Shown here in pieces: positions 1,939-25,960 of a stretch of 44,557 nucleotides of DNA. How positions within the stretch are numbered: position 1 is the first letter of the stretch; each line of letters begins with the position of its first letter. The stretch is from Ferruginibacter sp. (GTDB taxonomy: Bacteria > Bacteroidota > Bacteroidia > Chitinophagales > Chitinophagaceae), in the NCBI GenBank assembly GCA_017988335.1, contig JAGNRZ010000006.1, positions 1 to 44,557 on the forward strand. Reading direction: 5' to 3'. A model generated the notes under the pieces. The model had not been told where the DNA came from. It saw only the letters and a program-made list of their open reading frames with translations, and did not search any database. Both the position numbers and the translations under genes were made by a program.

Positions 1939-2307
1939 ATGAATAGACCGAATGAAGTATTGATGGATAGTAAAGAAAAATTTAAGCAGATTATTTTCGA
2001 CTATTACAGAAATCTTGTTGTAGATAAAATACCATTCCTACTGTTAGATAAACTTTGTAACATAATTACGGAATATTATTATGAACAATATTTTCGTTTT
2101 CATAAACAGTATCCAAAGTCATTTAAACGTTATTCAACATTCCAATTAAAAGACCTTAACCATCCACAAACAGCTAAAACTATAATTGACTTTTTTAAAA
2201 CAGAATCAAAATTGAATTATAAAGAGTATAGCAAACTACTATTGAATATAACTGAAGTGGAGTTGGAAAAGATAGAACAATGGTGGAATGATTTTGCAAG
2301 AATGTAA
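1939..2307 (+). CDS. hypothetical protein, 122 aa
   Basis: I do not recognise a family. The protein is soluble and helical-looking, rich in Tyr, Lys and Phe, with no signal peptide, membrane segment or cysteine pair. There are two possible starts, 1939 and an internal Met at codon 9 (1963). It is a single gene between two intergenic stretches with dispersed repeats. Composition resembles its neighbours. Confidence 0.55.
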   Translation: MNRPNEVLMDSKEKFKQIIFDYYRNLVVDKIPFLLLDKLCNIITEYYYEQYFRFHKQYPKSFKRYSTFQLKDLNHPQTAKTIIDFFKTESKLNYKEYSKLLLNITEVELEKIEQWWNDFARM

Positions 2308-2588
2308 AACCGCCAAAATTATTATCCCTTCAAGAGTGCAGCTTAATGGTGATGCTGCCAAGTACAAATGCTTATTATCTTTGCCTTGCTTCGTGTCTTC
2401 ACGAAGCACTCAGCTACTATAAAAGCTCAATAAAGATTTACAAGTACAAGTGAATGACACAACAAAAGCTCAGTAAAGTATAAATGCTTGCTACATAAAT
2501 AAATATTTTTCAATCCGCCACAAATATTGATTTTACTAGTATTTCAGCCAATATGAACTATTGCTGCAAAAATATTTTTTAAAAATTA
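2308..2588. other. intergenic region with a hairpin and a dispersed-repeat copy
   Basis: A perfect 9-bp hairpin occurs at 2387-2408 (TGCTTCGTG, loop TCTT, CACGAAGCA). The AAAAGCTCAATAAAG ... GTACAAGTG dispersed repeat occupies about 2421-2475. No coding sequence is supported. Confidence 0.5.
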
Positions 2589-2621
2589 TTTGGTGGTATC
2601 AAAAAAATAATTTCATCTTTG
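2589..2621 (+). promoter_or_regulatory. Bacteroidota-type promoter of the tRNA/RNA-repair island
   Basis: TTTG (2589-2592), 21 bases, then CATCTTTG (2614-2621) matches the Bacteroidota housekeeping consensus TTTG / TAnnTTTG at the usual 19-21 base spacing, with one mismatch. Transcription would start a few bases after 2621, giving about 25 bases of A-rich leader before the first short ORF. Confidence 0.6.
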
Positions 2622-2653
2622 CACTGCAAAACAAAATTTAAAAACAACAAAAC

Positions 2654-2746
2654 ATGTTACGCATACAACTACATATTGAAGCGATGAATTGTTTTAGTCC
2701 GAAAGGGGATTATAACAATAGCAGGGCATGTTACGCTGATAATTAA
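2654..2746 (+). CDS. leader peptide 1, a 30-residue tRNA sampler (putative)
   Basis: This ATG-initiated ORF sits just behind a promoter and just before an intrinsic terminator. Its first 20 codons specify 17 different amino acids; only Thr, Val and Trp are absent from the whole peptide. Many codons have a matching anticodon in the tRNA array that follows: CTA/TAG, CGC/ACG, AGT/GCT, TGT/GCA, CAT/GTG, GAT/GTC, AAA/TTT and others. The segment TAGCAGGG (2719-2726), late in the ORF, is complementary over 8 bases to CCCTGCTA (2775-2782) in the terminator 5' arm and loop, so it can act as an antiterminator. I infer ribosome-stall attenuation as in amino-acid operon leaders, but for many tRNAs at once. 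Translation is not shown by sequence alone. Confidence 0.6.
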   Translation: MLRIQLHIEAMNCFSPKGDYNNSRACYADN

Positions 2747-2773
2747 AAACTACTTAATTAACTATAACATAAG

Positions 2774-2799
2774 CCCCTGCTACATCGCAGGGGTTTTTT
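2774..2799 (+). terminator. attenuator terminator 1
   Basis: CCCCTGC (2774-2780), loop TACATC, GCAGGGG (2787-2793), then six Ts (2794-2799). The 5' arm and part of the loop can instead pair with TAGCAGGG inside leader ORF 1. Confidence 0.85.
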
Positions 2800-2821
2800 G
2801 TGAGTAACAAAAAATTAGAAA

Positions 2822-2980
2822 ATGCAAACACAACGCATACAATCGTATTTATTTATTGGAGCAGTAATGTTACCTAACGGTAATAGCTATGCCAAGCCGC
2901 AAGTAAATAGCAGTAGTAGGCATAATGAAAAAAATGATTTTAGAAATAAACGACCGAGGTGTAAATATTTGGTGCAGTAA
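2822..2980 (+). CDS. leader peptide 2, a 52-residue tRNA sampler (putative)
   Basis: This is the second short ORF between two intrinsic terminators. It uses 19 of 20 amino acids (only Trp is missing), including Thr and Val, which leader 1 lacks. It shares the codon run CGC ATA CAA with leader 1 near its start. Near its end, GACCG-A-GG (2952-2959) can pair with CCCGGTC in the next terminator (3004-3010), with one bulged A, giving an antiterminator. No protein family is recognisable. It may be a second control point in series. Confidence 0.5.
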   Translation: MQTQRIQSYLFIGAVMLPNGNSYAKPQVNSSSRHNEKNDFRNKRPRCKYLVQ

Positions 2981-3000
2981 CAACACTGCACAAAAAAATT

Positions 3001-3035
3001 AAGCCCGGTCAATTAAAAACGACTGGGCTTTTTTT
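3001..3035 (+). terminator. attenuator terminator 2
   Basis: AAGCCCGGTC (3001-3010), 10-base loop, GACTGGGCTT (3021-3030) with one G-T pair, followed by five further Ts. The 5' arm overlaps the complement of GACCGAGG in leader ORF 2. Confidence 0.85.
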
Positions 3036-3057
3036 ATAGCCCAAAAACAAAACTAAA

Positions 3058-3189
3058 ATGAAAACAATTGCTTTGATTTTGATAGTAAGGTTAGTAATTG
3101 AGTTAACAAAAAATACAAAAACTATCAAAACAGAAAATAGAAACACCATCATACATCCAGCAGAGTTTATGATGAGAGCAGAATATTAG
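3058..3189 (+). CDS. short ORF 3 (43 residues), possible third leader
   Basis: This ATG ORF follows terminator 2 and ends 16 bases before terminator 3. It has 14 amino-acid types and is rich in Ile, Thr and Lys codons, so the sampling signature is weaker than in the first two. GAGAGC (3174-3179) near its end could pair with GCTTTC (3209-3214) of the next terminator (6 pairs, one G-T). It may be a leader by position, but the evidence is modest. A five-codon ATG-TAA ORF (3190-3207) follows immediately. Confidence 0.35.
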   Translation: MKTIALILIVRLVIELTKNTKTIKTENRNTIIHPAEFMMRAEY

Positions 3190-3205
3190 ATGCAGAAGGA
3201 GGAAT

Positions 3206-3242
3206 AAGGCTTTCCCTATGAGATGCAGTGGGGAAGCCTTTT
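3206..3242 (+). terminator. attenuator terminator 3
   Basis: AAGGCTTTCCC (3206-3216), 13-base loop, GGGGAAGCCTT (3230-3240) with one G-T pair, ending in four Ts. It stands directly before the first tRNA gene of the array. AGATGCAG occurs both before the hairpin (3188-3195) and in its loop (3221-3228). Confidence 0.7.
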
Positions 3243-3264
3243 AAAAGTTGGTTGATAAAAAAAT

Positions 3265-3337
3265 ATAGGAGTATTTCAATTGGTAGAATCCGTGTTCTGG
3301 AAACATGAGGTTGTCAGTTCGAGTCTGGCCTTCTATA
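3265..3337 (+). tRNA. tRNA-Pro(TGG)
   Basis: Acceptor ATAGGAG pairs with CTTCTAT (one G-T). The anticodon arm is CGTGT-TCTGGAA-ACATG and the T arm GTCAG-TTCGAGT-CTGGC. The anticodon is TGG. Position 33 is C instead of the near-universal U, so decoding could be impaired. No CCA is encoded. Confidence 0.75.
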
Positions 3338-3344
3338 CAAAATT

Positions 3345-3417
3345 GGTCTGTTGGTCTAAGGGTTTAGGATTTCAAGCTTTCTACTTGAAGATGCCAGTTC
3401 GAATCTGGTACAGACTA
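3345..3417 (+). tRNA. tRNA-Glu(TTC)
   Basis: Acceptor GGTCTGT/ACAGACT, anticodon arm TCAAG-CTTTCTA-CTTGA and T arm GCCAG-TTCGAAT-CTGGT. The body is close to ordinary bacterial tRNA-Glu. Position 37 is T, which is unusual. The anticodon TTC matches GAA in leader 1. Confidence 0.85.
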
Positions 3418-3466
3418 CAAACTCTTGAAAACAAAATAGTGTGCAACGTTGCAGTTGCAGCTATAC

Positions 3467-3537
3467 GGTTTGTTGGTGTAACGGTAACATGTTTGATTGT
3501 CGATCAAATGTAAAGGGTTCAACTCCCTTACAAACCG
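3467..3537 (+). tRNA. tRNA-Asp(GTC)
   Basis: Acceptor GGTTTGT/ACAAACC with discriminator G, as expected for Asp. Anticodon arm TTTGA-TTGTCGA-TCAAA and T arm AAGGG-TTCAACT-CCCTT. Confidence 0.87.
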
Positions 3538-3543
3538 CAAAAG

Positions 3544-3614
3544 TATTGAGTGGTGCAATGGCAGCATATTAAATTTTGAATTTAATGATATTGGTTCGAA
3601 TCCAGTCTCGATAA
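3544..3614 (+). tRNA. tRNA-Gln(TTG)
   Basis: Acceptor TATTGAG/CTCGATA (one G-T), anticodon arm TTAAA-TTTTGAA-TTTAA and T arm ATTGG-TTCGAAT-CCAGT. T1-A72 fits GlnRS preference. Confidence 0.82.
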
Positions 3615-3620
3615 CAAAAT

Positions 3621-3706
3621 GTTGGCTCTAGCTTATCCCGAAATTTCGGGTGGTAAAGCATCCGTCTGTGCAACGGAGGAAAAGGGTTCGAATCCCAGTG
3701 TCAACC
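3621..3706 (+). tRNA. tRNA-His(GTG)-like gene with a palindrome in the D loop
   Basis: Anticodon arm TCCGT-CTGTGCA-ACGGA gives GTG (His). The D stem GCTT/AAGC is interrupted by a 14-bp perfect palindrome CCCGAAATTTCGGG (3637-3650), inserted between AT and TGGTA of an otherwise normal D loop. The acceptor pairs GTTGGCT/TGTCAAC with a T-T mismatch, and the T stem has only three good pairs, so the gene may be decaying or non-functional. Confidence 0.65.
3637..3650. repeat. 14-bp perfect palindrome inside the tRNA-His D loop
   Basis: CCCGAAATTTCGGG reads the same on both strands. Removing it restores an ordinary D loop, which suggests insertion of a small palindromic element. Confidence 0.8.
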
Positions 3707-3708
3707 AA

Positions 3709-3802
3709 TACGGCTTAGTGTTTTGGAAACATAATTATGCCCCTTTCTTTCTGAGAGGTAAGTAGTGCATAATTGTCTTCACTTCGAGTCTGAAAGTCGT
3801 AC
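3709..3802 (+). tRNA. tRNA-like gene with about 23 extra bases in the anticodon loop
   Basis: Acceptor TACGGCT/AGTCGTA forms 7 pairs (one G-T). The D arm is GTGT-TTTGGAA-ACAT and the T arm TTCAC-TTCGAGT-CTGAA (4 of 5 pairs). The anticodon helix ATTATGC (3734-3740) / GCATAAT (3767-3773) is perfect, but it encloses 26 bases, or 30 with the standard 5-bp stem, where 7 are normal. The insert can itself fold (CCTTT / AGAGG). The anticodon cannot be assigned. It could be an intron-like insertion, a decayed gene, or a non-decoding RNA. Confidence 0.55.
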
Positions 3803-3807
3803 AACAA

Positions 3808-3880
3808 TGGTCTATAGCCCAACGGCAGAGGCGATAGTTTTAGAAACTATGTAGTGTGAGTTCGAATCTCACTAGACCAA
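3808..3880 (+). tRNA. tRNA with anticodon TAG (Leu, codon CTA) on a short-variable-loop body
   Basis: Perfect acceptor TGGTCTA/TAGACCA, anticodon arm ATAGT-TTTAGAA-ACTAT and T arm GTGAG-TTCGAAT-CTCAC. The anticodon TAG reads CTA (Leu), yet the variable region is only GTAGT, whereas tRNA-Leu normally has a long variable arm. T1-A72 and the D arm look like tRNA-Gln. The charged amino acid is therefore uncertain. Confidence 0.75.
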
Positions 3881-3893
3881 CTAAAATAAAAAT

Positions 3894-3966
3894 TGGCTTA
3901 TAGCTCAATGGATAAGAATGCTACGCTACGAACGTAGAGATAAAAGTTCGACTCTTTTTAAGCCAA
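3894..3966 (+). tRNA. tRNA-Arg(ACG)
   Basis: Perfect acceptor TGGCTTA/TAAGCCA, anticodon arm CTACG-CTACGAA-CGTAG and T arm AAAAG-TTCGACT-CTTTT. A34 would be edited to inosine by TadA, allowing CGC to be read; CGC occurs in leaders 1 and 2. Confidence 0.88.
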
Positions 3967-3974
3967 CACAAAAT

Positions 3975-4046
3975 TGCGGTTTAGAGTAGTGGTTTACTCA
4001 AAGGTCTCATAAGCCTTGCACACAAGTTCGAATCTTGTAACCGCAA
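3975..4046 (+). tRNA. tRNA-Met(CAT) (or Ile2 after lysidine modification)
   Basis: Perfect acceptor TGCGGTT/AACCGCA, D arm GAGT/ACTC, anticodon arm AAGGT-CTCATAA-GCCTT and T arm ACAAG-TTCGAAT-CTTGT. The sequence alone does not separate elongator Met from Ile2 (codon ATA). Confidence 0.82.
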
Positions 4047-4051
4047 CAATT

Positions 4052-4123
4052 GATGATGTAGCTCAATGGTAGAGTTTTACGCTGATACCGTAAAGGTTAA
4101 ATGTTGAAATCGTTTCATCATCA
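4052..4123 (+). tRNA. tRNA-Ile(GAT)
   Basis: Perfect acceptor GATGATG/CATCATC, anticodon arm TTACG-CTGATAC-CGTAA and T arm AAATG-TTGAAAT-CGTTT. The T loop has G in place of the invariant C56, which would disturb D-loop/T-loop contact. Confidence 0.82.
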
Positions 4124-4128
4124 CAAAT

Positions 4129-4201
4129 TGGCTCGTAGCTCAATGGTAGATGCACCGAGCTTTTAACTCGGGGGCTGTGAGTTCGAATCTCACCGGGCCA
4201 A
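4129..4201 (+). tRNA. tRNA-Lys(TTT)
   Basis: Acceptor TGGCTCG/CGGGCCA (one G-T), anticodon arm CCGAG-CTTTTAA-CTCGG and T arm GTGAG-TTCGAAT-CTCAC. This is the most regular member of the array. Confidence 0.9.
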
Positions 4202-4207
4202 CAAAAA

Positions 4208-4278
4208 GGAAATATAGTTCAACGGTAGAACAATTGGTTGTTAGCCTTTTGATGAATGTTCGAATCATTCTATTTCCG
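4208..4278 (+). tRNA. tRNA-Asn(GTT)
   Basis: Perfect acceptor GGAAATA/TATTTCC with discriminator G, D arm GTTC/GAAC and T arm GAATG-TTCGAAT-CATTC. Loop TTGTTAG gives GTT. The anticodon stem keeps only its inner G-C pairs and has T-T mismatches below. Confidence 0.8.
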
Positions 4279-4285
4279 CAAAACC

Positions 4286-4310
4286 CCGACAGCGGCTAAA
4301 GCCCTGTCGG
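4286..4310 (+). terminator. hairpin between tRNA-Asn and tRNA-Ser
   Basis: CCGACAG (4286-4292), GGC-TAAA-GCC (4294-4303), CTGTCGG (4304-4310): an 11-bp interrupted stem in a very AT-rich array. There is no T run, so it may be an RNA-processing hairpin or a mobile palindrome rather than a terminator. Confidence 0.5.
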
Positions 4311-4324
4311 CGGTTAAAAAATTT

Positions 4325-4409
4325 GGAGAGTTGGCAGAGCGGTAATGCGGCAGCCTGCTAAGCTGTACATCGTTAAATCGGTGCAAAGGTTCAAATCCTT
4401 TACTCTCCG
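4325..4409 (+). tRNA. tRNA-Ser(GCT)
   Basis: Perfect acceptor GGAGAGT/ACTCTCC with discriminator G. Loop CTGCTAA gives anticodon GCT, and a long variable arm follows, as expected for Ser. It reads AGT/AGC, the Ser codons used in leader 1. Confidence 0.88.
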
Positions 4410-4446
4410 CTTTATTCAACAAAGCTTTATGGCATAGTTGAAAAAA

Positions 4447-4519
4447 GTCCTACTGGCAGACATGGCGTATGTATTCGATTGCAAATCGAAAGAAGAAAGT
4501 TCGAATCTTTCGTAGGACT
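4447..4519 (+). tRNA. tRNA-Cys(GCA)
   Basis: Perfect acceptor GTCCTAC/GTAGGAC with discriminator T (U73, the CysRS identity base). Anticodon arm TTCGA-TTGCAAA-TCGAA and T arm GAAAG-TTCGAAT-CTTTC. Confidence 0.9.
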
Positions 4520-4595
4520 CAAAAAAATTGTTTGATACCAAAATTTCGATAATGAGGAAATATGACATCAATCAAAAAAGGTAAAAAACAAAAAC

Positions 4596-4669
4596 GGTGC
4601 TTTGGCAGAATGGATTATATGCACTGGAGTGAAATCCCAGATATCAAGGTTCAATTCCTTGGGGCACCA
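4596..4669 (+). tRNA. tRNA-Phe(GAA)
   Basis: Acceptor GGTGCTT/GGGCACC (two G-T), anticodon arm CTGGA-GTGAAAT-CCCAG (one A-C mismatch) and T arm CAAGG-TTCAATT-CCTTG. The anticodon is GAA with a short variable region. The D arm resembles Leu/Ser types, so Phe is the best but not certain call. Two ORFs crossing it are artefacts of the tRNA. Confidence 0.75.
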
Positions 4670-4771
4670 CAAAAAAATAAAAAAAATGAAAAAAGTAAAT
4701 CAGTTCATAATGACAGCAATAGTAATGGTGCAGTGGCACAAAAGTTTTCGATCAGGAAAAAATAAAACATT

Positions 4772-5512
4772 ATGGACACAAAAATTATTAACCAGTTTGG
4801 AGCAGATATTCTCTGTTATAAACTACGTACTGCAAGGCAGAAAAAGCGTATGCAGTATGAGGATTTTGATAAGCAATTAATACGGCTAGATAAAAAAGAA
4901 AGGGACTTGTATTTGCAAAAAAGAAATTTAGGTTGGGAAGAGTTAAAACCTCCTGTACAAAAAGGTTGGGTAAGACACTTTGTAGTAAGAGACGATGTAG
5001 CTAGAAGTAAGTATGGCGAATTTTTTGAAGGCATTCTGCAAAAAATAAATACCTACAAGTATAGTTGGAAAAAAGACTTTACTAAAAAGAAGCGTAAGCT
5101 AGGCAAGAAAATTTATGTGGTAAGAACACAAGAACTTTTAAAGCCAAGGGAATACGAATTTGTAAAAATGAAATTTACTGATGTAGAAAAACAATTTTTT
5201 ACAGAAGAGTGGGAGTTAAATTGGAATAAGCAGCCTATTAAGAGATACGTTTTTACAGAGCCATGGCGATTTGTATTAAAAGTAAAACCTTATATGATTG
5301 ATAAAGTAAGAATTAATGATGCTGTATTAGAAAAACAGTTAAAAGAAATAGATAATTATTTAGAAAGAAACGATTTTAAAAAACGGTTATGCAAAGTGAA
5401 GCATCGTAGATATAGATACAAAGACTGGAAGCAAAGAGTAAAGTATAATGAAGAGTATGAGTATAAAAACAAAACATTAAATGAGATAAAAGATTTAATA
5501 ATGCAAAATTAA
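4772..5512 (+). CDS. basic hypothetical protein of the tRNA island, 246 aa
   Basis: I do not recognise a family. The protein is very rich in Lys, Arg, Tyr and Trp with a clearly basic C-terminal third (KKRLCKVKHRRYRYKDWK, residues about 200-217), which suggests nucleic-acid binding. There is no signal peptide or membrane span. It begins about 100 bases after tRNA-Phe and ends 4 bases before the YkuK gene, so the two are probably translated from one mRNA. Position inside the tRNA/repair island suggests an RNA-binding role; this is inference. Confidence 0.75.
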   Translation: MDTKIINQFGADILCYKLRTARQKKRMQYEDFDKQLIRLDKKERDLYLQKRNLGWEELKPPVQKGWVRHFVVRDDVARSKYGEFFEGILQKINTYKYSWKKDFTKKKRKLGKKIYVVRTQELLKPREYEFVKMKFTDVEKQFFTEEWELNWNKQPIKRYVFTEPWRFVLKVKPYMIDKVRINDAVLEKQLKEIDNYLERNDFKKRLCKVKHRRYRYKDWKQRVKYNEEYEYKNKTLNEIKDLIMQN

Positions 5513-5516
5513 AAAA

Positions 5517-6005
5517 ATGGAAACACAACAGCGGCAATGGCGTACACTTAGCGGTAAATGGATAAGGCGTTCTATTGCAGAAGAAATTAGCGACACACTT
5601 GCAAAGGAAATTGCTTTGGGCAACCAATTAAAAGTATGTATTGGCACAGATAGCCAGGTAAAAGGAAAGGAAACTGAATTTGCCACAGTAATTGTTTTTG
5701 TACGAAAAGGGAAAGGTGGTTTTATGTACATACACAATGAAACATCAAAACAAAAAATGACTATTAAAGAAAGGATGTTGATAGAGGTAGCAAAGAGTAT
5801 TGAAGTGGCGTATGAATTGTGCAATATATTCAGCAGGTTTAGTGTAGATATGGAAGTACATGCCGATATAAACACCAATCCAAACTTTAAAAGTAACGAT
5901 GCGTTGAAAGAAGCCATGGGCTATATTATGGGAATGGGCTTTGCTTTTAAAGCCAAGCCAGAAGCCTTTGCTAGTAGCAGTTGTGCAAATAAAGTAGTTC
6001 AATAA
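5517..6005 (+). CDS. YkuK family (DUF458) RNase H-like protein
   Basis: The 162-residue protein has CIGTDSQVKGKETEFATVIV (residues about 41-60), the typical first strand and acidic residue of DUF458/YkuK, followed by VFVRKGKGGFMYI and, later, VEVHADIN-type sequence (MEVHADINTNP) with a second acidic site. The family is predicted to have an RNase H fold; its biochemical activity is not established. It lies 4 bases after the basic protein and just before three tRNA-like sequences, which suggests a role on tRNA or other structured RNA. Confidence 0.85.
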   Translation: METQQRQWRTLSGKWIRRSIAEEISDTLAKEIALGNQLKVCIGTDSQVKGKETEFATVIVFVRKGKGGFMYIHNETSKQKMTIKERMLIEVAKSIEVAYELCNIFSRFSVDMEVHADINTNPNFKSNDALKEAMGYIMGMGFAFKAKPEAFASSSCANKVVQ

Positions 6006-6090
6006 AAAGTTCTTTAAAATATTGCGTAAGCAAAAACTAGGTTTATTATTTCTATCACACAAACCAGATGAGTGTTTTAAAAAAGCACCA

Positions 6091-6183
6091 TAGTGCAGTA
6101 GCGGTAGCAACCTGTATGCTGTTGTTGAAGAAATATATGCCTCCACAACCTGTGGGTCATGGGTTCGATTCCCATTCACTTTA
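6091..6183 (+). tRNA. aberrant tRNA-like sequence with 8-base direct repeats
   Basis: It has a D-arm-like segment (TAGTGCAGTAGCGGTAGCA, from 6091) and a perfect T arm ATGGG-TTCGATT-CCCAT (6159-6175), but about 50 bases lie between them. The direct repeat CAACCTGT occurs at 6108-6115 and 6146-6153. CTGTA (6112-6116) could be part of a Tyr anticodon loop, and CCACA-ACC-TGTGG a long variable arm, but CTCCA could equally suggest Trp. The acceptor strands do not pair well. Identity unresolved; probably a pseudo-tRNA or a tRNA with an insertion. Confidence 0.4.
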
Positions 6184-6184
6184 A

Positions 6185-6248
6185 GCGGTGATAGCTCAGA
6201 CTGTTAGAGCAACAGACAATCATGTGGGTTCGAATCCCACTCCCGGTA
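6185..6248 (+). tRNA. tRNA-like sequence lacking the anticodon arm (Met-like body)
   Basis: Acceptor GCGGTGA/TCCCGGT has 5 of 7 pairs, with TA, D arm GCTC/GAGC and a perfect T arm GTGGG-TTCGAAT-CCCAC. Only about 12 bases (ACAGACAATCAT) separate the D stem from the T stem. The flanks resemble an ordinary Met/Val-type tRNA from which the anticodon loop and 3' stem have been deleted. It cannot decode as it stands. Confidence 0.5.
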
Positions 6249-6250
6249 AA

Positions 6251-6300
6251 ATCGGGGTAGCGAAATGGTAAAGCAAAGCACTGAAAATGCTTCGATTAGG
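6251..6300 (+). pseudogene. truncated tRNA-Phe(GAA)-like sequence
   Basis: ATCGGGG-TA-GCGA... is followed by a perfect anticodon arm AAGCA-CTGAAAA-TGCTT (anticodon GAA at 6283-6285). No T arm with TTCGA and no matching 3' acceptor strand follow; downstream there is only a CATCA/TGATG hairpin. This is a 5' tRNA half or decayed gene. Confidence 0.5.
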
Positions 6301-6608
6301 ATGAAGATCATCACTTCTAAAAATGATGAAACAAAAAGCAAGTGTTGCTTCCTCAAAATATAATAGCGGACTGTTGCCGTTTTATATAGAAAAGTTTTGC
6401 AGTTGCCAGCAAAATGAAAATAAGTTATTAGCGATAAGCACTTAACTTTTATAGAGAGTAAAATTATTTTACTAAGTAAAAGCTAACTGTTTAGTCAAAA
6501 GTAATCAACCTTCATTTTCCGTAATAGTAAAATAGAAAGCAACATAAGCTTTTTTTAAAATTATTTAATAATTGCAGAGGCATAAACACATCTGTGTTAA
6601 TCCGTGTC
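6301..6608. other. gap before the slipin gene; possible short ORF
   Basis: A 40-codon ATG ORF at 6323-6445 uses 16 amino-acid types, and a small AAGC/GCTTTTTTT hairpin lies near 6537-6556. By position this could be another leader-terminator unit, but the terminator stem is short and no antiterminator is obvious. The rest is AT-rich with no recognisable feature. Confidence 0.3.
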
Positions 6609-6650: not shown

Positions 6651-7754
6651 ATGAAACAAGTAAAAATTAACGCCTACCAAATTGGTTTGGTATTTAAAAA
6701 TGGTGTGTACAAAAAAATGTTACCAGCAGGTAATTATTGGATGTGGTTAAATGAAGAAGTAATGGTGTATGATATTACAAAACCATTTTATGCTCCAATA
6801 GAATTGAATATTTTATTGCAAGATGCTGTGTTGGCAAGTGCTTTACAAATTGTAGAAGTAAGCGATAACGAAATTGTATTGCAATACGAAAATGGTTTGT
6901 TAAAGCAAGTATTAACAGCAGGTAGGTATGCTTTTTGGAAAAACGTAGTTAACAATTTTGAATTTGTGAAAGCAGATATTAGCAAAATTGAAATTACCGA
7001 AAACATTAACCGTACTGTGGTGCAAAACAAATTAGTAGCACCATACGTACGTAGCTACACTGTAGAAAACTACGAAAAGGCAATTTTGTTTATTGATGGA
7101 AAATATACTCAAACATTGCAAGCTGGTATTTACTATTGGTGGAAAAATAACATCACCATTGTAGTGGGTAAGGCCGATATGCGTATGCAACAAATTGAAA
7201 TTAATGGTCAAGAAATTTTGACTAAAGACAAAGCTGCATTGCGTATTAATGGTTATGCTCAATATAAAGTGGTAGATATTGAAAAAGCAATTTTACAAAA
7301 CAAGGATTACGAAAAACAATTGTATGTAGCTTTTCAATTAGCTTTAAGGGAGTATGTTGCAGCGTATGGCTTTGATGAATTATTGGAGAAAAAAGAAACT
7401 ATTGCACCATTTATTTTAGAAGCAGTTAAAATGGCTGCCGAAAATTTGGGTGTTGAAGTAAATAACTTTGGTATCCGTGATATTATTTTGCCAGGCGATG
7501 TAAAAGACATTATGAATAAAGTATTGGTAGCAGAAAAAAATGCACAAGCCAATAGCATTATGCGTAGGGAAGAAACAGCAAGTACTCGTAGTTTGTTAAA
7601 CACTGCTAAGTTAATGGAAGATAACACTATGTTGTGGAAATTGAAAGAAATGGAATACATTGAAAAAATTGCCGATAAAATTGGCGAAATTAGTGTAAGC
7701 GGAAATGGTGCATTAATGGAACAGTTAAAGCAAATTTTTGTGGTACAGAAATAA
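6651..7754 (+). CDS. SPFH/Band 7 slipin family protein
   Basis: The start at 6651 (MKQVKINAYQIGLVFKNG) is preferred over the longer frame from 6594, which would cover the palindrome and read low-quality sequence. The 367 residues give the slipin plan: N-terminal strands with paired repeats ending in P/AG-x-Y/YWW, a Band 7 core (about residues 150-285; KDKAALRINGYAQYKVVD, then GIRDIILPGDVKDIMNKV), and a C-terminal helix rich in Glu and Ala. No clear N-terminal membrane helix is present. Slipins are known companions of RtcB/RlaP RNA-repair genes in bacteria, where they may organise the enzymes; the role here is inferred from context. Confidence 0.88.
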   Translation: MKQVKINAYQIGLVFKNGVYKKMLPAGNYWMWLNEEVMVYDITKPFYAPIELNILLQDAVLASALQIVEVSDNEIVLQYENGLLKQVLTAGRYAFWKNVVNNFEFVKADISKIEITENINRTVVQNKLVAPYVRSYTVENYEKAILFIDGKYTQTLQAGIYYWWKNNITIVVGKADMRMQQIEINGQEILTKDKAALRINGYAQYKVVDIEKAILQNKDYEKQLYVAFQLALREYVAAYGFDELLEKKETIAPFILEAVKMAAENLGVEVNNFGIRDIILPGDVKDIMNKVLVAEKNAQANSIMRREETASTRSLLNTAKLMEDNTMLWKLKEMEYIEKIADKIGEISVSGNGALMEQLKQIFVVQK

Positions 7755-7840: not shown

Positions 7841-8584
7841 ATGGAAAGAGTTAGAGAAATACTAAAGAAAATCGAAACCGACAAAAATGTCAAAATACTA
7901 TATGCTTGCGAAACAGGCAGTAGGGCTTGGGGTTTTCCATCACCCGATAGTGATTTTGATGTAAGGTTTATTTATATGCATGAAAAAGATTGGTATTTGC
8001 ATTTACAAACAAAAAAAGATACTATAGAATTTATGGATGGAGATTGGGATGTAACTGGCTGGGATTTGCGAAAATCACTTTTGCTGTTAAAAAAAAGCAA
8101 TGCTCCATTGATAGAAAGATTTAATTCTCCAATTGAGTATTTTTCTGTCACTAACTTTAAGACTGAATTTAATCATTTAATAAAAACGTATTATTCGCCG
8201 ATAGCTGTTTTTTTTCATCATTATTCATTAGCAATAAAATTTTGGGAGGATGTTAAGGATAAAAACGAGTATAAATTAAAAACTTTTTTCTATTTAGTTC
8301 GTTCCTTGCTATCATGCAACTGGATTCTTAAAGACTCTAATGTGGTGCCGATGGAAATAAGTAAATTAATGAAGTATGGTGACGAGACACTAAATGCAAG
8401 ACTAAACAATTTAATAGTACTAAAAAGTACAGTAAATGAAAAATATTTGCATCCAAAAGATTTGTATCTTTTTGAATGGATAACAAGTGTTTTTGTTGAG
8501 TTGGAAAAAAATAAAAATAATTTGAATGTTTGTAAAGCAGATATCAAAATGTTAAATGAGTATTTTTTAAAAAGTTTGAAATAA
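7841..8584 (+). CDS. RlaP-type nucleotidyltransferase 1 (DNA polymerase beta superfamily)
   Basis: The 247-residue protein carries the pol-beta nucleotidyltransferase signature GSRAWGFPSPDSDFDVRF (residues about 27-44), with the G-S motif and the D-x-D metal ligands, as in COG3541/PF10127 (RlaP, RNA ligase-associated nucleotidyltransferase). A third acidic residue may lie in WDVTGWDL. The superfamily includes CCA-adding enzymes, so template-free addition to damaged tRNA 3' ends is a reasonable guess, but not proven. It is followed after 4 bases by a paralogue, and RtcB lies 1.5 kb downstream. Confidence 0.85.
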   Translation: MERVREILKKIETDKNVKILYACETGSRAWGFPSPDSDFDVRFIYMHEKDWYLHLQTKKDTIEFMDGDWDVTGWDLRKSLLLLKKSNAPLIERFNSPIEYFSVTNFKTEFNHLIKTYYSPIAVFFHHYSLAIKFWEDVKDKNEYKLKTFFYLVRSLLSCNWILKDSNVVPMEISKLMKYGDETLNARLNNLIVLKSTVNEKYLHPKDLYLFEWITSVFVELEKNKNNLNVCKADIKMLNEYFLKSLK

Positions 8585-8588
8585 TAAT

Positions 8589-9644
8589 ATGCTTACAATA
8601 GAGTACATAAAAAATAATGGATGGCTAGTTTTTGAAGTGATAACTGGGAGTAAATCCTATGGATTAAATACACCAAGTTCCGATACTGACATAAAAGGCG
8701 TATTTATATTACCTCAACATATGTATTATGGTTTACAATATGTAGAGCAGGTAAATAATGAAACCAATGACATTGTTTATTATGAACTACGGAGGTTTAT
8801 AGAATTGCTTTTAAAGAATAATCCAAATATTTTGGAAATGTTGAATGTTCCAGATAGTTGTGTTTTATCTAAACATCCTATAATGAATGATGTTAAGCCA
8901 GAACTGTTTTTGTCTAAGCTATGTGAACAAACATTTGCTAATTATGCTTATACACAAATAAAAAAGGCATATGGACTTGAAAAGAAAATAATGCAACCGA
9001 TAGACAAAAAAAGAAAAGCTGTATTAGATTTTTGTTATGTATATAAAGGTAGAAATGCAATATTGTTGGAAAACTATATTACTATCAATGAATTACAATT
9101 GGCTAATGTGGGACTAACTAAAATTCAGCATTTAAAGGATTGTTATAATTTTTATTACTCTGATTCTGATGCTTATTGTGGTGTGACAAAAAATGAAAAT
9201 GCAAATGATGTTTGTTTAAGCAATATACCAAAGGGAAACACTCCGATAGCAATGTTATATTTTAACAAAGATGGATATTCGGCTTATTGTAAACAATATA
9301 AGGAGTACTGGGATTGGGTAGAAAAGAGAAATAACGATAGATTTAATTCAACCATGGCTCATGGTAAAAAGTATGACGCCAAAAACATGATGCATGTGTT
9401 TAGGCTTTTGCATATGGCTAAAGAAATTGCAATTGAAGGGAAAATAAATGTGCATAGAAATGACAGAGATTATTTGTTAGCAATCAAAGAAGGAAAATTT
9501 GAGTATGATGAGTTGGTACAAAAAGCGGAAGCGTTAAAAGGTGAATTACCCTTATTGTATCAGCAATGCTTTTTGCAAGATGAACCGAATATAGAAAGTG
9601 TAAATGAATTATTAATTAAAATGAGGGTGCTTTATTATGGATAA
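8589..9644 (+). CDS. RlaP-type nucleotidyltransferase 2
   Basis: A second, longer (351 aa) member of the same group: TGSKSYGLNTPSSDTDIKG (residues about 19-37) holds the G-S and D-x-D motifs. It diverges strongly from its neighbour, so this is an old pair rather than a recent duplication. The start is 4 bases after the stop of nucleotidyltransferase 1, and its end overlaps the next gene by 8 bases, so translation is probably coupled. The two enzymes may use different nucleotides or different RNA ends; this cannot be told from sequence. Confidence 0.85.
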   Translation: MLTIEYIKNNGWLVFEVITGSKSYGLNTPSSDTDIKGVFILPQHMYYGLQYVEQVNNETNDIVYYELRRFIELLLKNNPNILEMLNVPDSCVLSKHPIMNDVKPELFLSKLCEQTFANYAYTQIKKAYGLEKKIMQPIDKKRKAVLDFCYVYKGRNAILLENYITINELQLANVGLTKIQHLKDCYNFYYSDSDAYCGVTKNENANDVCLSNIPKGNTPIAMLYFNKDGYSAYCKQYKEYWDWVEKRNNDRFNSTMAHGKKYDAKNMMHVFRLLHMAKEIAIEGKINVHRNDRDYLLAIKEGKFEYDELVQKAEALKGELPLLYQQCFLQDEPNIESVNELLIKMRVLYYG

Positions 9645-10006: not shown

Positions 10007-10053
10007 AAAAGCTCAATAGAAGTGTGCCGTACAAGAGTGCGACGCAACAATGA
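10007..10053 (+). repeat. dispersed intergenic repeat, copy A
   Basis: AAAAGCTCAATA followed by GTACAAGAGTGCGACGC (core 10029-10053). The 25-base core is identical to copy B at 12319-12343. Flanking ACACTTC/GAAGTGT form a hairpin. Confidence 0.7.
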
Positions 10054-10093
10054 CGTTATAAAAAAAAGTTGGTATCAAAAAAATGAAAACAAA

Positions 10094-11560
10094 ATGAGTA
10101 AATTAAAATTAACAGGAAAACAAATACGTGCCATTGGTTACCCCGAAGGACCAGTGGTAAGTGTAGCTATGCATACCATGTGTACACACTTTAAGCATAC
10201 TAAGGAAGAAGATGCTTTGCAAATTTTAAAAGATGTATTAGCAGCACCGGAAAATTATTTGGCAGACGAAGTATTAGGAAAAATTGCTGACAAATTAATT
10301 GTAGTTGAAGAAGAAACTACAATTGAAATTCAGTTGAATGAAGTTGGAGTAGAGTATAATGTTTTTGGAGAAAAGCATATTGAAGAAGGTGCTTTACTAC
10401 AAATGCAAACTGCTGCTAAATTGCCTGTAGCTGTTGCTGGGGCTTTAATGCCCGATGCACATCAAGGTTATGGATTGCCAATTGGTGGTGTATTAGCAAC
10501 AAACAATGCCATTATACCTTATGCAGTAGGTGTAGATATTGGTTGTAGAATGTGCTTAAGCATCTTTGCAATTGATGCTGATGAATTGAAAAAAAGAGAA
10601 GCTTATTTTCAAAGGGAATTAGTGGCTAATACATTGTTTGGTGCTGGTAGAGAGTTTAGCAAATTAGATGTGTATGCCGCAGCATCTGCAACCGATGTAC
10701 TGGATAGAAAAGAGTTTAGTGAAATCTCTTTTTTAAATAGTTTACAAAGCAAAGCCATGAAACAACTAGGAAGTAGCGGTAGCGGTAATCACTTTGTTGA
10801 GTTTGGTAAAGTAGAAATTACAGATGCTAATAATCCATTGAAATTGCCTGTAGATAATTACGTAGGCTTACTAAGCCATAGTGGTAGCCGTGGTTTAGGT
10901 GCAAATATTGCTAACCATTACACACAAATTGCTATGCAAAAAACTGTGTTGCCAAAAGAAGCAAAACATTTAGCATGGCTTAGTTTAGATGATGAAGCTG
11001 GTATGGAATATTGGTTGGCTATGAATTTGGCTGGTGATTATGCAAGTGCTTGTCACCACACTATACATGCAAAAATTACAAAAGCTATTGGCGAAAAACC
11101 ATTGGCAATGGTAGAAAACCATCACAACTTTGCATGGAAAGAAATGTACCAAGGTAATGAAGTAATTGTGCATAGAAAAGGTGCAACTCCTGCTGGTAAA
11201 GATGTGTTGGGTATTATTCCTGGTAGTATGACGGCACCGGGTTTTATTGTAAAAGGTAAAGGAGAAATTACTTCTTTAAATAGTGCAAGCCATGGTGCTG
11301 GTCGTAAAATGAGCCGTAGCAAAGCATTGGCAAATATTACGCATGAGGCATTAAAAAAAGAATTGGCAGAGCATGGTGTAAAATTAATTGGCGGAGGATT
11401 AGATGAAGCTCCTTTTGCCTACAAGGATATTAATGAAGTAATGCAAAGCCAAACAACATTGGTTGATGTGTTGGGTAAATTTTACCCTGCTATTGTACAA
11501 ATGGATGGTACTGATCCAAGAAAGTTTAAAAAGAGGAATAGAGATATTGTTGGAGAGTAA
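10094..11560 (+). CDS. rtcB: RtcB-type RNA ligase
   Basis: I choose the ATG at 10094 (MSKLKLTGKQIRAIGYPEG), which begins where RtcB homology begins; the longer frame would read the dispersed repeat. The 488-residue protein shows the RtcB signatures in order: MPDAHQGYGLPIGGV, VGVDIGCRM (metal-binding Asp and Cys), GSSGSGNHFVEFG, SHSGSRGLG, VENHHNFAWKE, HRKGATPA, GSMTAPGF and SHGAGRKMSR, the last containing the His that is guanylylated. RtcB uses GTP and Mn2+ to join RNA 3'-phosphate or 2',3'-cyclic phosphate ends to 5'-OH ends, the products of anticodon nucleases. It closes the repair island and is followed by a strong terminator. Confidence 0.95.
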   Translation: MSKLKLTGKQIRAIGYPEGPVVSVAMHTMCTHFKHTKEEDALQILKDVLAAPENYLADEVLGKIADKLIVVEEETTIEIQLNEVGVEYNVFGEKHIEEGALLQMQTAAKLPVAVAGALMPDAHQGYGLPIGGVLATNNAIIPYAVGVDIGCRMCLSIFAIDADELKKREAYFQRELVANTLFGAGREFSKLDVYAAASATDVLDRKEFSEISFLNSLQSKAMKQLGSSGSGNHFVEFGKVEITDANNPLKLPVDNYVGLLSHSGSRGLGANIANHYTQIAMQKTVLPKEAKHLAWLSLDDEAGMEYWLAMNLAGDYASACHHTIHAKITKAIGEKPLAMVENHHNFAWKEMYQGNEVIVHRKGATPAGKDVLGIIPGSMTAPGFIVKGKGEITSLNSASHGAGRKMSRSKALANITHEALKKELAEHGVKLIGGGLDEAPFAYKDINEVMQSQTTLVDVLGKFYPAIVQMDGTDPRKFKKRNRDIVGE

Positions 11561-25888: not shown

Positions 25889-25960
25889 GGCTCCTTAGTT
25901 TAATGGATAAAATTTCAGATTCCGATTCTGAAGATACAGGTTCGATTCCTGTAGGGGCTA
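25889..25960 (+). tRNA. tRNA-Arg(CCG)
   Basis: Acceptor GGCTCCT/AGGGGCT (two G-T), anticodon arm TCAGA-TTCCGAT-TCTGA and T arm ACAGG-TTCGATT-CCTGT, discriminator A, CCA not encoded. A single regular chromosomal tRNA outside the array. Confidence 0.92.

Follow-up and report, generated by a model that had tools for sequence, protein, structure and literature searches.

The window, the whole 44,557-nucleotide stretch of DNA analyzed here, is a Bacteroidota contig placed in or near Chitinophagaceae by the nearest named relatives of its PF04308 protein. The features of interest lie on its forward strand. A promoter-like stretch read from the sequence (TTTG ... ATCTTTGCA, 2589-2623), whose consensus we take to be of the Bacteroidota type and which is a putative promoter, precedes an ORF encoding a 30-codon leader peptide (ORF1, MLRIQLHIEAMNCFSPKGDYNNSRACYADN and a stop codon, 2654-2746). 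Codons 2-20 of ORF1 (2657-2713) are the predicted sensing zone, in which 19 codons fall into 19 different tRNA classes, and codons 23-25 contain GCAGGGC (2721-2727), the predicted 5′ strand of an antiterminator. ORF1 is followed by a predicted intrinsic terminator (terminator 1: GCCCCTGC, a loop and GCAGGGG TTTTTT, 2771-2799), whose 5′ arm GCCCCTGC is predicted to double as the partner of the antiterminator strand. The sequence CATGTTACGC occurs at both ends of ORF1 (2653-2662 and 2727-2736), and its two copies pair with each other when the full leader is folded.

Further downstream, a second leader of 52 codons (ORF2, 2822-2980, read by eye) carries its own antiterminator 5′ strand (GACCGAGG, 2952-2959), which in the RNA fold is base-paired to terminator 2's 5′ arm, and terminator 2 itself is predicted at 3001-3036 (AAGCCCGGTC, a loop and GACTGGGCTT TTTTT). 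A small ORF of 43 codons with a hydrophobic start and an HPAEF motif (ORF3, 3058-3189) and a third hairpin that is no clear terminator (AAGGCTTTCCC...GGGGAAGCCTT, 3206-3240) follow; by eye, ORFs resembling ORF3 and hairpins like the third one are present in some relatives, and the stretch at 3058-3245, with ORF3 and then the GGAGGAATAAGG...GAGATGCAG hairpin, resembles some relatives' versions. Next is a tRNA array at 3265-4670, in the order Pro, Glu, Asp, Gln, His, Leu, Arg, Met, Ile, Lys, Asn, Ser, Cys and Phe, found with ARAGORN and the Rfam tRNA model, with His read by eye. It is followed by genes for a 246-aa protein with no Pfam or NCBIfam match (4772-5512), a PF04308 RNase H-like protein (5517-6005), an SPFH/Band 7 protein (6651-7754), an RNA-repair nucleotidyltransferase of the RlaP family (7841-8584), a second RlaP-like protein (8589-9644) and the RNA ligase RtcB (10022-11560).

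ARAGORN placed 13 tRNAs within 3265-4670 and a distant Arg(CCG) at 25889, and the Rfam tRNA model returned the same 13 together with a weak match at 6185-6248. ARAGORN miscalled the His(GTG) gene at 3622-3706 ('???'), whose anticodon stem-loop TCCGT-CTGTGCA-ACGGA is readable by eye. With 13 called tRNAs in 1.4 kb, set apart from the ordinary set, this dense run has the form of a tRNA array unit. Among the tRNA matches covered elsewhere in the genome, 21 further tRNAs were read, in which 8 of the 13 array anticodons recur, and the anticodon arms of array and chromosomal copies with the same anticodon differ. In these eight comparisons, the anticodon stems and some loop bases of the array tRNAs (3265-4670) are unlike those of their chromosomal counterparts, a pattern that tRNAs evading anticodon nucleases might be expected to show; the array copies may serve as working tRNAs, decoys or nuclease-resistant spares. 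The array tRNA-Leu(TAG) gene (3808-3881) is 74 nt long and has no long variable arm; the two chromosomal tRNA-Leu genes read are 85 and 87 nt. Small palindromes (CCCGAAATTTCGGG, CCCGAAAGCTTTCGGG) sit inside array tRNA genes, in the D-loop of the His gene (3637-3650) and in several tRNA-like stretches of a related locus (L015, 1240-1900). Three Chitinophaga loci (L086, L092 and L099) share a mini-array composed of Ile(TAT), Gln(TTG) and His(GTG), and their leaders have 14-15 distinct residues. Array tests used ARAGORN with -ps90, which misses degenerate tRNAs; a tRNA finder of our own was set aside, as it recovered 421 of 490 ARAGORN calls and gained little.

The original prediction described ORF1 as sampling 17 amino acids in its first 20 codons, which the sequence at 2654-2746 bears out. 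Thr, Val and Trp are indeed missing from these codons, and the array likewise has no called tRNA for any of the three. The array tRNAs were also said to have their codons in ORF1, and this is the case for all 13 called by ARAGORN when wobble is allowed, and for the His tRNA read by eye; within codons 2-20, an exact Watson-Crick match is available for 5 of the 13. The window's array is covered equally well by 1 of 43 other leaders at the codon level and by 3 of 43 at the amino-acid level. The amino-acid diversity itself is beyond chance: 17 distinct residues in codons 2-20 are found in none of 1359 N-termini, taken from six-frame ORFs of at least 150 aa in the fetched loci, and in 0.03% of internal windows. 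Beyond that prediction, and stronger than the residue count, is the number of tRNA classes. Because the repeated Leu and Ile residues use different isoacceptors (TTA/CTA and ATA/ATT), the 19 codons represent 19 classes, as assigned by standard decoding rules rather than by the organism's measured tRNAs, a score reached by 0 of 937 N-termini (ORFs of at least 200 aa in related loci) and by 0.012% of 8095 internal windows.

Homologous leaders were collected as follows. A search with the PF04308 protein yielded the best 80 of 305 candidates, and the 246-aa protein had matches in 15 of 396 genomes of the order. ORF1 homologues were picked by a detector that looks for a short ORF, an upstream TTTG, a downstream terminator and complementarity of the ORF end, and that is blind to the make-up of codons 2-20; its picks and two hand additions (L078 and L092) amount to 70 ORF1s. 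Of 79 distinct PF04308 loci, 57 have an ORF1, and the detector yielded none at the other 22. TTTGCA lies upstream of 64 of the 68 detector-picked ORF1s. Before counting, we removed detector hits in L021 and L095, a minus-strand hit in L071, those in the second region of L131, those at alternative starts in L045, L048 and L073, and any second ORF of a single locus; an earlier hit in L107 was retained as a second ORF1, and L040 and L016 were skipped because they duplicate L015 and L051, respectively. L107 has two ORF1-type attenuators (4684-4773 and 8554-8646).

A further search used a covariance model (R1) spanning codon 20 to the terminator, which matches 83 of 394 genomes of the family at E<1e-8; at E<=0.001 it matches 168 genomes, the weaker part of which includes ordinary terminators. 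In the window's own genome, the window copy is the sole strong match (4e-12), the next being 4e-4; genome G247 has two strong matches on different contigs. From the strongest matches, passing over some that were already known or near contig ends, 60 regions were fetched (all with E of 2e-10 or better, except G247:C1 at 1e-9). They gave an ORF1 pick in 56 cases, 27 of them exact repeats and 29 new, and none in four. The total is thus 99 ORF1s, 94 of which are 29-31 codons long; some of the 29 new ones are near relatives of one another, and many loci are related overall. Within the fetched sequence of up to 12 kb, the 99 ORF1s are followed by PF04308 in 82 cases, an array of at least two called tRNAs in 76 and RtcB in 62, and at least one of the three is present in all 99; such a neighbor was no search condition for the 29 ORF1s found by the RNA model. 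Pfam also identifies, in related loci, a Ro60-like TROVE/vWA protein and a divergent WYL-domain protein (L015, 6024-7544 and 4884-5897) and an AAA ATPase (L016, 10537-11619, and also L121).

Across these homologues, the variety of codons 2-20 is high. The mean number of distinct residues is 15.2 for the 70 ORF1s, 14.8 for the 29 new ones and 15.09 for all 99, compared with 11.1 (sd 1.5) for the 1359 N-termini and 11.5 for internal windows. When the columns of 51 leaders of 30 codons were shuffled, none of 5000 shuffles reached the observed mean (15.51, versus 13.63 with sd 0.14), and diversity remained above every column shuffle after thinning to 15 leaders under 60% identity; the excess implies that residues compensate for each other across sites. 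Very unlike sequences, such as L127 and L221, have the same variety. Moreover, the variety extends to isoacceptors. The 99 leaders represent a mean of 17.19 tRNA classes in 19 codons, versus 13.2 in the null, and repeated residues are read by different isoacceptors in 239 of 325 pairs, where 155.8 (sd 8.7) are expected; in 45 non-redundant leaders, the corresponding figures are 109 of 158 pairs and 74.2 (sd 6.3). For example, Leu2 and Leu6 fall in one class in 0 of 28 loci, the orders TTA...CTA and CTN...TTA both being common, and Ile4 and Ile8 do so in 4 of 30. The full set of residues is not present in every ORF1: Cys occurs in 27 of the 99, Met in 29, Trp in 39, Val in 49 and Ala in 50. Overall, these comparisons support the conclusion that the ORF1 peptide samples tRNAs and is under selection to do so.

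The substitution pattern suggests that ORF1 is translated. Across 20 disjoint close pairs, codons 2-20 show 39 changes at first, 46 at second and 70 at third codon positions. Of the 86 codons with a single change, 39 are synonymous where 20.6 are expected, comparative evidence that a short translated ORF lies upstream of the operon. That ORF1 is a chance ORF whose diversity is a by-product of leader RNA structure would fit a structured leader whose antiterminator constrains the final third of ORF1; the synonymous excess, the narrow range of lengths and the recurrence of the same property in sequences as different as L127 and L221 make this reading extremely improbable.

The end of ORF1 appears to be one half of a switch. 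The model calculations place an intrinsic terminator between ORF1 and the genes it would regulate, and they indicate that the ORF end can pair alternatively with the terminator's 5′ arm, being exposed for this only when a ribosome waits early in the ORF. In particular, complementarity to the 5′ arm is greater for the ORF1 end (median position, nt 66) than for codons 2-16 at 68 of 68 loci, the two hand-added loci being left out of the pairing and ribosome-position folds (68 of 70 and 97 of 99 loci used). Compared with shuffled ORF ends, the complementarity is significant (p<0.05) at only 52 of the 68 loci (p of 0.04 for the window), and, as complementarity was used in picking the homologues, pairing is enriched by construction; its dependence on codon position is not. 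The pairing is kept in diverged loci (GCAGGG/CCCTGC in the window, CAGGGC/GCCCTG in L063 and GCAGGGC/GCCCTGC in L086), with mismatches within the 7-base core in L084 and L087.

When the RNA left uncovered by a ribosome waiting at each codon in turn was folded as far as the last base of the 5′ arm, assuming a footprint edge 13 nt past the first base of the waiting codon, the antiterminator was predicted in 96-97 of 97 loci for codons 2-18, in 90 for codon 19, in 32 for codon 20, in 16 for codon 21, in one for codon 24 and in none from codon 25 onward. The variety lies in the same codons as this predicted sensing zone (2-19 or 20) and drops in windows reaching past codon 23. RNAalifold on 38 aligned leaders returned only four terminator pairs and missed the antiterminator. 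Mutual exclusion of the two structures and register shifts of the terminator arm are the probable causes; the per-locus pairing and the ribosome-position folds were used instead. Within 2300-6600 of the window, no T-box or other known leader was found at Rfam thresholds, the tRNA family being the only one to reach them.

ORF2 and terminator 2 repeat the design of ORF1 and terminator 1 in tandem. In the window, codons 2-40 of ORF2 hold 18 residue types, supplying the Thr and Val missing from ORF1 and no Trp. A script for ORF2 found it in 31 of the 70 homologous loci and not in the other 39, and it missed the window's own ORF2, whose pairing is bulged and which was read by eye. In the 31 loci, the residues before the ORF2 antiterminator include a mean of 18.65 of the 20 amino acids, compared with 15.75 in the null, and all 20 in 11 loci; the pick in L126 is probably the end of another gene, and the mean is 18.70 without it.

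Whether the leader follows the array was tested in nearest relatives. In 26 disjoint nearest-relative pairs (52 loci), a locus's own leader fits its own array better in 12 pairs, worse in one and equally well in 13 (sign-flip P of 0.001, and 0.003 when set sizes are kept); amino acids that differ within pairs agree 22 times and disagree 6 times. An earlier set of 22 pairs (44 loci), whose loci are all among the 52, gave P of 0.0025 and 0.010. Counted by stretch, better and worse fits stand at 12 and 1 (codons 2-20), 8 and 3 (codons 2-18), 7 and 3 (the control codons 21-30) and 11 and 3 (codons 2-30), so that the contrast with the control codons is one of degree. Over the 44 loci with at least four called tRNAs, 415 of 449 array entries are covered by the locus's own leader, compared with 393.8 when leaders are swapped, a difference inflated by kinship. 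Permuting leaders among all loci or within protein clusters was rejected as too lenient, single-linkage protein clusters having merged almost all loci at two of the three cut-offs, and the nearest-pair tests were relied on. Sequence comparison thus points to a leader-array match that is a real tendency of moderate strength.

Counts over the homologous loci indicate that the putative sensor is broader than the supply. Downstream of 23 of the 99 leaders there is at most one called tRNA, and these leaders, which precede RtcB, PF04308 or both, still average 16.35 classes, compared with 17.63 for those with arrays of at least four. Diversity is slightly reduced with small or absent arrays: distinct residues average 15.64 with at least four tRNAs, 14.67 with two or three and 14.29 with none or one. 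Of 44 leaders with arrays, 31 contain Thr; the 44 arrays themselves have no called Thr tRNA, and the enlarged set of 99 loci has one in only two (L131 and L220). The original prediction that the peptide measures exactly the tRNAs that the array supplies therefore stands in part: the check at homologous loci that it called for shows that leader content tracks array content modestly, significantly and beyond kinship; the exactness fails, as leaders occur without arrays. As a strict rule, exact matching is contradicted by the array-less broad leaders and by Thr. As a reading of the locus, it has the 13 of 13 matches in the window and the 12 relative pairs of 26 that fit better, with one worse, in its favor; set against broad leaders with no array or with three tRNAs and against the Thr counts, it is improbable.

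The layout of the locus, the selected diversity of its leader, the competing pairings and their conservation, all evident at the sequence level, point to a ribosome-mediated transcription attenuator: ORF1 with terminator 1, joined by ORF2 with terminator 2, very probably responds to a shortage of almost any tRNA. With all tRNAs present, the leading ribosome, its translation coupled to transcription, would reach the ORF1 stop codon and cover GCAGGGC and the bases after it; terminator 1 would then form, and transcription would halt ahead of the tRNA array. If a tRNA were missing, for example after cleavage by an anticodon nuclease, the ribosome would wait at the codon in need of it within codons 2-20. 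GCAGGGC would then be free to pair with the 5′ arm of the terminator, and RNA polymerase would read onward through ORF2 and the array to the repair genes, those of RtcB, RlaP, PF04308 and SPFH, provided that co-transcription extends as far as RtcB. Since each codon of the zone is read by a different tRNA, the loss of any one would be enough. Array tRNAs, if active, would replenish the pool and RtcB would re-seal cut tRNAs, after which the attenuator would close. We consider it likely that the leader is a tRNA roll call, selected to hold one codon per tRNA species and as many as fit into the exposed zone; a single terminator would report the integrity of most of the tRNA pool and, by feedback, free reserve tRNAs and RNA repair, and the reserve set and the roll call would co-evolve.

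The trp, his and ilv leader peptides are the classical cases of ribosome-mediated transcription attenuation, with codons repeated for one or few amino acids. The locus shares with them a short ORF, an ORF end that pairs with a terminator arm, and a terminator before an operon. In contrast to them, ORF1 avoids repeating any tRNA, having 19 classes in 19 codons in place of codons rich in one regulated amino acid, and it precedes tRNA and RNA-repair genes. Attenuators classically sense tRNA charging, which, together with a diversity visible at the amino-acid level, is what speaks for a sensor of general amino-acid starvation whose leader gauges the charging of all amino acids. Such a sensor would have no need to sample isoacceptors, as the leaders do with Leu TTA and CTN codons (in the same class in 0 of 28 loci), and its outputs would be expected in biosynthesis rather than in tRNAs and an RNA ligase; we regard it as unlikely.

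The main rival to the tRNA-shortage attenuator is a general sensor of ribosome stalling or antibiotics, of the whiB7 and toiL type, in which any slow ribosome early in ORF1 would trigger the switch and the codon mix would be incidental. As described in the parts of PMC12121999 and PMC10287673 considered here, the whiB7 and toiL uORFs sense broad translation stress through ribosome stalling, and whiB7, which answers many drugs, is raised when the toxin VapC5 cuts tRNA-Ser; those parts describe no isoacceptor-complete codon design, and the outputs there are a transcription factor or a toxin-antitoxin operon. At the present locus, the uORF and terminator precede tRNAs, PF04308, SPFH, RlaP and RtcB rather than a whiB7/wblC gene.

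Relatives of the 246-aa protein bear on this rival as well. Beyond the order, the protein is present in 9 of 395 genomes of the phylum besides the window's own, and the nine fetched loci had no called tRNA and no attenuator by the strict detector. With a looser script and by eye, seven of them (L266, L268-L271, L273 and L274) have a leader of 25-28 codons with bulged terminator complementarity before the operon; L267 has only an unlike ORF and L272 has none. These leaders, such as MFVLNLTSQNITSELDSVVMCLRGFSQS, lie 250-340 bases upstream of the gene for the 246-aa protein and have 9-12 distinct residues, that is, no excess diversity. RtcB and PrfH were found by family search in L266 only. On this sequence evidence, the relatives beyond the order are a natural contrast, with a similar switch, no roll call and no called tRNA array. 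That a similar layout precedes 246-aa protein and RtcB operons in other families of the class, with so few distinct residues in its seven leaders, favors a stall sensor; codon variety is unneeded for drug stalling, however, and within the ORF1 family diversity exceeds that of column-shuffled controls and repeated residues take different isoacceptors, which makes a mere stall sensor rather improbable.

Other known systems resemble the proposed tRNA-shortage attenuator in its outputs. Burroughs and Aravind reportedly treated RNA repair systems in 2016. RtcB lies near the regulated start (10022-11560), as in an RtcR-type operon, and a scan of selected proteins gave no match to an RtcR activator with a CARF domain. 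In the Salmonella RNA repair operon, as far as it is set out in the part of PMC7790460 considered, RtcR induces the RtcB operon in response to broken tRNAs; there, a CARF-domain protein binds tRNA fragments, whereas here a translating ribosome would be the sensor. The Anabaena trn operon is, according to the portions of PMC10272220 considered, a silent reserve tRNA array that is held by TrcR and induced by translation stress, and rtcB and a slipin gene are among the genes raised without TrcR; a protein repressor acts there, and the words 'leader' and 'attenuation' are absent from the main text of that paper. As far as they are described in the portions considered, the Salmonella, Anabaena, whiB7 and toiL systems all lack a leader under selection for varied tRNAs. 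Mycobacterial tRNA array units are dense tRNA clusters, described in 2026 work as a putative antidefense system (PMC5966550, PMC12803027), and the titles and abstract openings mention no leader attenuator. By the same measure of titles and abstract openings, no such leader appeared to be described in the papers listed by the literature searches, which is no proof that it has gone undescribed.

The textbook attenuator senses one amino acid or a few. Selection of a leader for maximal tRNA variety would make it a general alarm for tRNA damage, written in 20 codons. The putative alarm is present in many species of one bacterial family, where it would be wired to spare tRNAs and an RNA ligase. How bacteria could notice tRNA-cutting toxins, or anticodon nucleases triggered by phage, without a protein sensor would thereby have a testable answer. 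Further, the proposed alarm suggests a purpose for the tRNA arrays that lie beside RtcB, and the leader may serve as a natural reporter for the shortage of any tRNA.
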